NCBI RefSeq assembly: GCF_963666195.1
Contig: NZ_OY762653.1
Span: 2,654,501 to 2,718,500, forward strand
Direction of reading: 5' to 3'
DNA from: Trichococcus shcherbakoviae
GTDB taxonomy: Bacteria; Bacillota; Bacilli; Lactobacillales; Aerococcaceae
DNA: 64,000 bases
Shown: positions 5,124 through 35,337 of the stretch, in pieces
Position numbering within the stretch: position 1 is the first letter of the stretch
Layout: each line of letters begins with the position of its first letter
Translations under genes and position numbers: made by a program
Notes under the pieces: generated by a model
Database searches by the model: none
Seen by the model: the letters and a program-made list of their open reading frames with translations, nothing else
What the model was told of the DNA's origin: nothing

Positions 5124-5134
5124 AGACAGACCGA

Positions 5135-5167
5135 AAAGACCAGTCCCACACAAGGGCTGGCCTTTTT
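5135..5167 (+). terminator. Terminator after the HerA-like gene
   Basis: An imperfect 12-bp hairpin (AAAGACCAGTCC with GGGCTGGCCTTT) runs into a T5 tract. Confidence 0.75.
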
Positions 5168-5219
5168 GGTTTCTTTTTTTTGATGAAGCGAAAGTGCATC
5201 ACCGTTGGTGTTTAACACG

Positions 5220-5379
5220 TTTGCAAAGTGTTCCATGTATCCAATAGCGATGGCTAGCTTCACGGGTTAGCCCTTCGGAAATTAGATAAATCTGACCCAT
5301 TGCGCTCTACGATGCTCATTCAGGGCCAGATTTCCTAAATTTCTTTCAGGGCTGAGCGAACCCGTTCCGCTTTTCTTTT
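5220..5379. repeat. Intergenic near-palindromic repeat, copy 1 (short form)
   Basis: The core (5252-5379) begins GGCTAGCTTCACGGGTTAGC and ends AACCCGTTCCGCTTTT. The two halves are imperfect inverted repeats and fold into one long hairpin, with AAATCTGACCC (5288-5298) facing GGGCCAGATTT (5323-5333) near the tip. A conserved TTGCGCTCTACGATGCTCA sits at the apex. The same unit recurs near 9974 and, inverted, near 33866. Similarity to the third copy extends about 35 bases left of the core, to 5220. It occupies most of the 400-base gap before the siderophore operon. Confidence 0.85.
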
Positions 5380-5417: not shown

Positions 5418-5483
5418 TTGTGTTTTATTTCCGCATCCAGTAGAATAGCACCTATACCATTAATTGAGAATGATTCTCAATTA
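5418..5483 (+). promoter_or_regulatory. Promoter with Fur box for the siderophore ABC operon
   Basis: The promoter reads TTGTGT (5418-5423), 17-base spacer, TAGAAT (5441-5446). Just downstream, 5463-5483 is a perfect 21-base palindrome, AATTGAGAATGATTCTCAATT, matching the Fur box core; GAATCGTTATCATT follows as a partial second site. A repressor bound here would cover the transcription start, so iron-dependent repression of the next four genes is expected. Confidence 0.85.
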
Positions 5484-5527
5484 GAATCGTTATCATTAAG
5501 GAGTTGCTTTTGGAAGATGGTGAATAG

Positions 5528-9896: not shown

Positions 9897-9940
9897 AAAA
9901 AGGACTGAATAGCGGGAATGATCGCTGCTCAGTCCTTTTT
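9897..9940 (+). terminator. Terminator after the DUF1054 gene
   Basis: AAAAAGGACTGA pairs with TCAGTCCTTTTT around an inner AGCG/CGCT helix. Confidence 0.85.
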
Positions 9941-9973
9941 GGCTTGAAAAATATTTTGAGCATCCAAAACGTT

Positions 9974-10231
9974 GGCTAGCTTCACGGGTTAGCCCTTCGG
10001 AAATTAGATAAATCTGACCCATTGCGCTCTGCGATGCTCATTTGCATGGAACTCTTAGGGATTCATCCCTTAGAGTCCCAGTACAAGGTGACCGTAGGGA
10101 ACGTTGCGAGGCCAGATTTCCTAAATTGTCATGACTCTTGCGATTTCAATCGCTTAGAGGCATGATACACTTGACCGATTAGGTCACAGTGTTTCCTTAA
10201 AGAAGGGCTGAACGAACCCGTTCCGCTTTTC
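9974..10231. repeat. Intergenic near-palindromic repeat, copy 2 (long form with two extra hairpins)
   Basis: The outer arms are the same as in copy 1 (GGCTAGCTTCACGGGTTAGC at 9974; AACCCGTTCCGCTTTT to 10230), but the element is about twice as long. Two hairpin modules interrupt it. Module A is at about 10047-10080 (ACTCTTAGGGA, loop TTCA, TCCCTTAGAGT). Module B is at about 10130-10163 (CTCTTGCGAT, loop TTCA, ATCGCTTAGAG), followed by ACACTTGACC/GGTCACAGTGT (about 10167-10191). A and B share loop and bulges while their stem bases differ in a paired way. It lies between the convergent DUF1054 gene and rpsD. Confidence 0.85.
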
Positions 10232-16204: not shown

Positions 16205-16467
16205 TAGTGAAGTATAAATAAGCGTCGATCAAGAAGAGTAGCTTACCCGGAACCACACAAGAGAGAAAAGCGTTTGGTGAAAGCTTTTTTGGGGAAGGGA
16301 AGTGAAGTAGCTTGTGAGCAAGTTGCGTGAAGGTCTGCGGACTGGGTAGCGCAGCTCGGAGTATTCTCCGTTATCAAAAAGAGAGACAGGGATCCGATTC
16401 CTGTAATTTAGGTGGTACCGCGATTCATATCGTCCTGCATATTCGTATGCAGGGCGTTTTTTTTTCG
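16205..16467 (+). promoter_or_regulatory. T-box leader of valS (valine)
   Basis: The T-box sequence AGGTGGTACCGCG is at 16410-16422 and the terminator stem (CCTGCAT/ATGCAGG then T9) at 16432-16466. Stem I pairs CAAG (near 16229) with CTTG (16311-16314). The 5' side of the specifier loop carries the S-turn AGTA; the 3' side presents GTA at 16307-16309 followed by G, a valine codon. TGGT in the T-box pairs with an A73 tRNA end, as expected for tRNA-Val. Uncharged tRNA-Val should permit read-through. Confidence 0.9.
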
Positions 16468-26819: not shown

Positions 26820-27140
26820 TTGCATTTAACGAACGCTGTGGTATTATTGTCTTAAATTCTAAATGCAATGAAGAGAAAAAGTAACTTTTGGCTATTTCCA
26901 GAGAGTTTGCGGGTGGTGTGAGCAGACAATAGAAACCAGTGAAATCACGTCTCTGAGCAAGAATTCCGAAAAGACAGCATCCGCTGCCCTTAGTAGGTTG
27001 ACTCGGTTGTGCCCGTTACAGCACTGACGTTTCGAATGGAACGTTATGAGGCGGTTTCTGTGAAGATGCCGCAAAAAAAGGTGGAACCACGACTTCAATC
27101 GTCCTTTAACTTTCAGCAGGAAGTTAGAGGGCTTTTTTTA
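26820..27140 (+). promoter_or_regulatory. Promoter and T-box leader of the amino-acid ABC operon
   Basis: The promoter is TTGCAT (26820-26825), 16 bases, TATTAT (26842-26847). The leader carries the S-turn AGTA, the AGAGAG and GGGTGGTG elements, and T-box AGGTGGAACCACG (27079-27091). A terminator hairpin follows (about 27104-27139). The T-box base after TGG is A, predicting a tRNA with U73 (Thr, Gly or Cys). Near the specifier position (26944-26949, ATCACG) the readable codons are ATC, CAC and ACG; only ACG (Thr) agrees with U73, while CAC (His) fits the geometry of the other two T-boxes. Specificity is unresolved. Confidence 0.85.
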
Positions 27141-30354: not shown

Positions 30355-30490
30355 TTGAAGCCGGATTTTTGATAAGCTATTAATGTTGTAAATGTGCGCA
30401 CCACGGCTACAACCGCACGAATGGGAGTCATAAGACCTTAAAGGGCACTTCGTTTGGCGAGTCTAAGTAAAATAAGGAGGTGCAGAGAAT
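30355..30490 (+). promoter_or_regulatory. rplU promoter and probable L21 leader RNA
   Basis: TTGAAG (30355-30360), 17 bases, TATTAA (30378-30383), then about 100 leader bases ending in AAGGAGGTG. Position and length match the L21 leader known upstream of rplU in Firmicutes; the segment around 30396-30415 (GCGCACCACGGCTACAACCG) could start its first stem. I did not fold it fully. Confidence 0.65.
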
Positions 30491-33853: not shown

Positions 33854-33865
33854 AAAAAAAAAGAA

Positions 33866-34013
33866 AAGCGGAACGGGTTCGTTCAGCCCTGAAAGAAATT
33901 TAGGAAATCGTGCCGACTGAGCATCGTAGAGCGCAATAGGTACGATTTGTCTAATTTCCGAAGGGCTAACCCGTGAAGCTAGCCAACCGTTATAATTGCA
34001 CGGAACATTTTGC
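33866..34013. repeat. Intergenic near-palindromic repeat, copy 3 (short form, inverted)
   Basis: The core is 33866-33984, opposite in orientation to copies 1 and 2: it begins AAGCGGAACGGGTTCGTTCA and ends GGGCTAACCCGTGAAGCTAG. Where copy 1 pairs AAATCTGACC with GGCCAGATTT, this copy pairs (read on the minus strand) AAATCGTACC with GGCACGATTT, a two-base change mirrored on both arms. Weak similarity to the left flank of copy 1 continues to 34013. It fills the gap between the convergent ackA and uspA-like genes. Confidence 0.85.
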
Positions 34014-34082
34014 AATCCTGTAAAACACCAAAGGTAATGCACTTTGGGATTCAAAATATATTATGCATTCTTATTACAAAAT

Positions 34083-35144: not shown

Positions 35145-35337
35145 ATTAGAAATCCGATGGTGCCGGTGAGTATATTCTACTAGTTTTGAACCCGCATATA
35201 AGCAGGTGGGCTCCAATATCCAGTCTCTAACTACCAAATGATAAGGCGTGTTATCCACTGAGATAAACAGGATCCCAAGGTAGTAATAAATTGTTCGGTC
35301 AACACATTGAGAATATGTCGAACACCTCAGAAATCTA
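35145..35337 (-). ncRNA. ssrS: 6S RNA
   Basis: About 190 bases on the minus strand without a coding frame. Near the 5' end it reads TTTCTGAGGTGTTCG, close to E. coli 6S (TTTCTCTGAGATGTTCG), and near the 3' end CACCATCGGATTTCT, pairing to close the molecule. Inside are GAGCCCACCTGCTT and GCGGGTTCAAAACTA, typical of Firmicute 6S. It has its own promoter and terminator and lies beside rarA, as in Bacillus. 6S RNA binds sigma-A RNA polymerase as an open-promoter mimic in stationary phase. Exact ends are estimates. Confidence 0.85.

Follow-up and report, generated by a model that had tools for sequence, protein, structure and literature searches.

Three intergenic sites in the stretch of Trichococcus shcherbakoviae DNA analysed here (64,000 nucleotides, referred to as the window) carry long near-palindromic repeats, and the question is whether these are structured RNAs at transcript ends or copies of something that moves. 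A preliminary description of the window proposed that all three sites carry one unit and named both possibilities. The common unit was borne out, with the limits of its core corrected and copy 2 recognized as the unit plus two modules. The three copies are small hairpin-shaped mobile DNA elements resembling the EFAR elements of enterococci. All follow the same plan, in which a 5' region of variable length, often ~90 nt, is followed by a core hairpin of ~125 nt bounded by G(A/T)TG(G/T)C(T/C)AGC at its 5' end and GC(T/A)TTTC at its 3' end. Copies 1 and 3 have a stem-loop on the 5' side of the core, and the same region is shortened in copy 2. The parts are listed below by window position; G numbers denote genomes, G000 being that of the window and G009 another of the same species.

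5130..5169 (limits approximate), + strand: terminator-like hairpin upstream of copy 1
about 5167-5186, + strand: second, T-rich half-hairpin after that terminator-like hairpin
5192..5242, + strand: 5' stem-loop region of copy 1, AAGTGCATCACC..., which recurs 5' of many copies
5249..5376, + strand: copy 1, plain core hairpin
9900..9939, + strand: terminator-like hairpin upstream of copy 2
9940..9970, + strand: shortened 5' region of copy 2
9971..10231, + strand: copy 2, core with two modules
10041..10111 (limits approximate), + strand: module B of copy 2, lacking in G009 and G012, which share this insertion
10128..10204 (limits approximate), + strand: module C of copy 2, lacking in G009 and G012, which share this insertion
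33863..33987, - strand: copy 3, plain core hairpin
33988..34077, - strand: 5' region of copy 3 with stem-loop
34078..34125, - strand: terminator-like hairpin, upstream of copy 3 in the sense of the element

Copy 2 lies between the convergent genes DUF1054/rpsD and copy 3 between the convergent genes ackA/usp, while the neighbours of copy 1 are co-oriented and encode a HerA-like ATPase and a FecCD permease. A terminator-like hairpin with a T-run stands upstream of all three copies, even at the stricter threshold of E <= -16. The earlier remark that all copies sit beside terminators, two of them between convergent genes, therefore holds. Just after copy 1, upstream of the FecCD iron-transport gene, a further palindrome at about 5462-5495 has a motif that we take to be Fur-box-like. 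Rfam searched at its curated gathering score gave four matches in the window, namely two T-box leaders, 6S RNA and an L21 leader (16216-16440, 26859-27109, 35147-35336 and 30401-30474), and none at the three element sites. A permissive search of four loci returned nine hits below threshold, none of them within a core, and assignment to an Rfam family was rejected. A curated covariance model would prevent these repeats from being confused with small-RNA genes or terminators.

The resemblance among the window copies is not due to chance, since a BLAST search of their own genome (2,925,055 bases) with copy 1 returned 58 pieces with a best non-self E of 2e-58. The pieces were assembled into 40 copies. 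Covariance model R1, built from 27 of the 40 copies (those free of modules) and one plasmid copy, gave 43 matches in the same genome, where 40 copies were read, and 8 to 43 matches per genome in 13 of 13 Trichococcus genomes including its own.

The two ends of the core pair with each other, and the covarying core comprises 34 modelled pairs. In alignment A1 (28 sequences), 97.3% of 951 cells are paired and double-sided changes occur at 14 of the 34 pairs. The A1 covariation score was reached by 0 of 500 shuffles; the count of further pair types was not raised, being reached by 480 of 500. Alignment A3 holds 76 distinct matches from other genera, which are related sequences fitted to the model structure and hence lean towards it; 97.0% of its cells are paired, double changes occur at 33 of the 34 pairs, and none of five measures was reached by any shuffle. 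When one side of A3 was slid by one column, pairing fell to 48.5 or 55.7%. The covariation looked for after the preliminary description is thus far above the shuffle and slide controls. Folding with RNA parameters found none of 200 shuffles as stable as copies 1 and 3 on both strands or copy 2 on the + strand, and with DNA parameters 1 of 200 shuffles was as good as copy 1 on the + strand and none on the - strand. Near the tip, the arms pair as AAATCTGACC/GGCCAGATTT in copy 1 and as AAATCGTACC/GGCACGATTT in copy 3, exactly as first quoted, and an A-C mispair is kept in the variable arm of both. At the base of the stem, Trichococcus copies have at least two sequences unrelated to each other, TTCACGGGTTAGCCCTTCGG and GGTCCAAGCCTGCCTCTCGG, and in either case the 3' arm matches. 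The model contains the centre AAAGATAAAT...ATTTCCTATTTT and CTCGGAA; AGA(T/C)AAA and TTTCCTA are both exact in 28 of 28 rows of A1 and in 49 of 76 rows of A3. The apex, first described as nearly invariant, is so among the Trichococcus copies read but varies in other genera.

Two tests of which strand folds disagree. Pair statistics weakly favour the plus strand, with 42 G-U against 20 A-C pairs after exclusion of one column, a count that rests on a model built on the plus strand and on related sequences and that replaces an earlier smaller one dominated by a single G-U column. Energies favour the minus strand, which is the lower of the two for 22 of 27 cores from Trichococcus and for 59 of the 76 from other genera, against 2 and 13, respectively, for the plus strand. 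In addition, 30 of 48 distinct plain cores have at apical position 4 an A-C that is G-U on the minus strand.

The strong covariation across many genera, the position at gene ends and the terminator-like 3' end all speak for a host structured RNA or 3'-end element, such as a terminator or RNA-stability hairpin, under selection. The core does end in a hairpin followed by CTTTTC, and the last 26 nt ahead of the T-run, folded alone, reach -5 kcal/mol or lower in 35 of the 40 copies of this genome, the three window copies standing at -6.7. We compared seven orthologous sites (S1-S7), with 8 to 13 Trichococcus genomes per site. S1, the site of window copy 1, is filled in two genomes and empty in nine, two being not comparable. 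In the filled genomes ~30 nt of the target are gone, mostly the right arm of the second T-rich hairpin, which is complete (by eye) in the element-free orthologue G008; insertion is therefore not always clean. S2, the site of copy 2, is filled in six genomes, holds a remnant in one and is empty in six. Its terminator in empty orthologues reads CAGTCCTTTT, then CTTTGTACA or CCTTATACA, and its junction is CAGTCCTTTTCTTTGTACA when empty and CAGTCCTTTTTGGCTTG...element...GCTTTTCCTGTACA when filled. S3, the site of copy 3, is filled in one orientation in three genomes and in the other in two, and is empty in eight; within one species, G000 is filled and G009 empty. S4 is filled in eight genomes and in one more at a contig edge, holds a 3' remnant in two and nothing in one, with one not comparable. 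S5 is filled in five, empty in seven and unclear in one. S6 is complete in three, shortened or a remnant in five (one with a second, opposite insertion) and empty in three, two partial matches not being read; its junction is GGCCTCTTTTCTTATTTTTTACCC when empty and GGCCTCTTTTTTTATATTG...element...GCTTTTCTTATCTTTTATCC when filled. S7 is filled in two and empty in six, with four not comparable and one without a match. No clear target duplication was found at the seven sites, where the 3' CTTTTC of the element and the T-run of the target are indistinguishable. The sequence present on both sides of the element, CTTTT at S2 and about CTTTT(C/T)TTAT at S6, may belong to the element end or to the target.

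Presence in some genomes and absence in others, together with modules that differ within one insertion (see below), indicate a mobile hairpin and not a fixed host RNA. The window elements are therefore non-autonomous mobile hairpins. A host RNA is very unlikely: sister species commonly lack the element at orthologous sites, S3 differs in this way within a single species, copies lose internal segments as they decay, and at the compared sites they follow a terminator that is already there, so that another would seem superfluous. The proposal of a structured RNA at transcript ends had the place right, but a host function is not needed, because orthologous sites are often empty. Empty sites, which the preliminary description advised looking for, were found at S1-S3 and S5-S7, and S4 lacks the element in one genome. 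Its proposal of a non-autonomous mobile hairpin is supported by the high copy number, the presence and absence at orthologous sites and the covarying fold. That the copies are miniature non-autonomous mobile hairpins of the EFAR type is quite probable. Mobility is read here from the comparison of genomes, and part of the spread could be homologous recombination of the flanks.

The length of the core varies among the 40 own copies, from 121-124 nt in plain cores up to 258 nt. Inserts occupy fixed places and are of three kinds, A (GGATAAAGGAACCCC...), B (TGCATGGGAGTC...) and C (GTCATGACTC...), single or combined. At the copy 2 site, five genomes have the flanks, the 5' region and the 3' end in common and differ in modules: G009 and G012 are without inserts, G000 carries B and C, G007 adds to these two an A with a sub-insert, and G003 has the set of G007 with a further insert nested within C. 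G009 and G000 thus differ at this site within one species. Some copies have decayed by internal deletion, and at S6 in G009 the left arm differs while the right arm is unchanged, so that the pairing is broken. The joint change of both arms stated in the preliminary description is real, but part of the copy diversity is mosaic, as this left arm illustrates. Mosaic structure and conversion-like patches between copies would also fit spread without a dedicated mover, in which flanking genes are merely taken up as DNA and recombined homologously, yet the same element is found at unrelated terminators with unrelated flanks, and we consider this explanation the most improbable of all.

A mobile hairpin with a target preference agrees with where the copies lie. 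At seven of the seven sites compared the element is downstream of an intrinsic terminator, in the orientation terminator then element 5' end. At the bidirectional terminators of S3 and S6 insertion occurred on either side, always in the orientation following the T-run, the other-strand insertions being those at S3 in G012 and G003 and at S6 in G003. Among the 40 own copies, a same-strand hairpin with a T-run (E <= -12) lies within 120 nt upstream of the core in 28 and is lacking by this test in 12, compared with 5 of 40 downstream regions and 65 of 400 random window positions; the window being rich in genes and poor in copies, such positions do not amount to a matched intergenic control. At E <= -16 the counts were 22 upstream, 2 downstream and 29 random. 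A looser test discriminated poorly (34/40 upstream, 27/40 downstream, 235/400 random), and an over-strict test accepted 14 of 40 copies and a random fraction of 0.036. This rule, behind a terminator and in one orientation, is directly testable. On the upstream side of the copy at L022 an apparent tRNA gene 3' end is followed by TTTT, as if the tRNA acceptor stem were the target hairpin, and another tRNA-like sequence follows the copy.

The distance from terminator to core in the 28 copies is 83-107 nt in 16 and 12-64 nt in 12. A strict 5' motif, (T/A)AGGAANN(N)TATAA, was found in 18 of 117 upstream regions read and lies 89-91 nt ahead of the core in 16 of the 18, and Trichococcus copies with the full 5' motif consist of about 89-91 nt plus a 122-124-nt core. 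Four enterococcal-type copies (L115-L118), from families f1, f3, f6 and f8 and with different left flanks, all start TAGACTAGGGG, 1-2 nt past the T-run, and extend 159 nt to CTTTTCTTAT; their near-identity was judged by eye, as an internal one-base shift makes ungapped counts meaningless. We propose that an enzyme supplied in trans would recognize the folded single strand and join the CTTTTC 3' end of the element at the T-run exposed beside the hairpin. Such joining fits the preference for terminators, the single orientation, the 3' end made up of a hairpin and T residues, and the arrays described below. The fold would be kept because an unfolded copy would not move, and modules might spread among the many copies through recombination or template switching.

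An RNA route would also produce insertions beside terminators in fixed orientation. Group IIC introns prefer terminators, and a terminator-preferring reverse transcriptase could copy a structured RNA into DNA beside the T-run, leaving variable 5' ends and modules joined by template switching. The 5' region is indeed missing from several copies (L002, L010, L015, L017 and L094), and the module swapping is compatible with template switching. This route deserves mention above all because of the 5' junction of S7, where GGTGTTTCA is common to the filled site and the empty site of G005, other empty sites having only GGTGTTT or less. However, three short copies (L006, L013 and L095) retain the extreme 5' motif and have lost the middle, resembling internal deletions and not 5' truncations, and the minus strand folds better in most copies, yet the constant end would correspond to the 3' end of a plus-strand RNA. 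We regard an RNA route as unlikely.

Each copy of the mobile hairpin ends in a hairpin and a T-run and could therefore be the next target, and this would account for arrays. In other genera, successive matches are spaced about 119-128 bases apart. Rows of five units occur at two places of G115, rows of four and five in G022, a row of three in G065 and pairs in several genomes of genus g37. At L269, five units occupy the gap from an apparent stop codon to an AGGAGG-ATG start. The units at L253 are nearly identical to one another, so local duplication may contribute to arrays.

A REP-type Y1 transposase had been suggested as the mover. We fetched 30 of the 47 Y1_Tnp matches in the 13 Trichococcus genomes and found no partner among them: at 28 of the 30 loci none of four element queries matched (E <= 1e-3), L278 had a 38-nt element fragment at its edge, and L290 (G012) had a full copy at 1115-1336 adjoining an IS200-like Y1 transposase gene on one side only. 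Such a mover is thus unsupported within the genus. The elements offer a system for asking which enzyme mobilizes short folded DNA or RNA in Firmicutes.

Related elements extend well beyond Trichococcus. In an order-wide sample they were detected (E <= 0.001) in at least 119 of 395 genomes and at least 21 of 80 genera, counts that include 11 genomes of Trichococcus itself and 45 with weak hits from genus g23 of family f4, which we take to be Streptococcus, and that are lower bounds because at most eight candidates were scored per genome under strict filters. Six of the weak f4 g23 loci were read (L260-L265) and have a related GATAA...TTTCCTA centre on either strand. Model R1 has matches (E <= 0.01) in 41 of the 105 genomes from the family of G023, 22 of them in genus g37; in 16 of these 22 the S4 protein is 95-96% identical to PDB chain 7nhk_e, presumably that of E. 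faecalis. A 30-base exact pattern from the element was found in 56 stretches of a named genome collection, solely in records of Trichococcus or 'Sedimentibacter sp. SX930'. The latter (MUZD01 contigs; L041, L046, L047, L064, L074 and L081) was equated with G009, and its genus label looks wrong. Tentatively, we suggest a class of parasitic hairpins across Lactobacillales that would use the terminator (hairpin plus T-run) as attachment site, seed head-to-tail arrays through their own 3' terminator mimic, move in folded single-stranded form, perhaps as the minus strand, and evolve by hairpin modules plugged into fixed loops.

Among known repeats, EFAR is the closest in description. De Gregorio et al. 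reportedly found EFAR to be assembled from modular sequence types, with sizes of 42-650 bp and a common form of 170 bp, and to insert at stem-loops, part of the target being lost, as read from empty and filled sites. The Trichococcus elements likewise have distinct modules and core lengths from 121 to 258 nt, and they have empty and filled stem-loop targets at seven sites, with the target stem partly lost at S1. Both are intergenic palindromic repeats with stem-loops side by side, and their sizes and copy numbers are similar; against an EFAR size of about 163-170 bp, core plus 5' region is comparable and the enterococcal-type copies measure 159 nt, Trichococcus copies that have the full 5' motif being longer. 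They differ in that the stems and modules of the Trichococcus copies are their own. The likeness rests on descriptions, the 29 genomes tested being without an E. faecalis chromosome (best S4 protein match 96%), and by description the Trichococcus elements would be an EFAR-like kind in a new genus. In the parts of the sources consulted, EFAR elements are described as MITEs of enterococci, citing De Gregorio et al. (2009, FEMS Microbiol Lett 292:7; PMC3733652), and probably correspond to Efa-1 of E. faecalis, a 163-nt repeat with 65 copies and two adjacent stem-loops (PMC2267715). The word EFAR does not occur in the consulted part of a 2024 review on prokaryotic MITEs (PMC10969869). Spread over 21 genera, orientation behind terminators and nested modules are absent from the EFAR descriptions consulted, some of which the EFAR paper itself may cover. 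A repeat described, in those sources, from enterococci alone is thereby tied to a structure-conserving family in 21 of 80 sampled Lactobacillales genera. Our literature search, whose coverage left out most subscription journals, found no description of repeats from Trichococcus or of a wider family of such repeats.

Other repeats are less similar. BOX of Streptococcus pneumoniae is, by the sections consulted, also modular, hairpin-forming and non-autonomous (67-637 bp), but terminal inverted repeats and target duplications are reported for it (PMC3049150). In the elements here the core ends pair and no clear target-site duplication is seen, and the likeness to BOX is one of description. SPRITE of S. 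pneumoniae is, in the same sections, terminator-like and enriched between convergent genes, with a duplex of 18 bp, then a long tract rich in U, and 28% GC (PMC3049150). It was set apart by description and rejected on shape, the elements here having 34 modelled pairs; GC is 0.44-0.48 in Trichococcus plain cores and 0.28 to 0.54 in other genera, and therefore separates the elements from SPRITE only in Trichococcus. REP/REPIN sequences with RAYT transposases are, in the portion of the source consulted, likewise palindromes found mostly downstream of genes and thought to be moved in trans (PMC3733652), but the element copies read here lack a terminal GTAG, and none of the 30 Y1 loci has an element on both sides of the transposase gene.

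A phage-borne element was rejected, as the phage collection had no match with either the Trichococcus or the enterococcal-type copy. Plasmids searched with the g37-type copy gave no match. Eleven E. faecium plasmids carry a copy with 78% identity across 93 nt, and one E. faecalis plasmid carries the left part of an E. faecium-type copy. In this plasmid (L193, about 682-760), the left element part abuts a sequence resembling recombinase-family genes of other plasmids.
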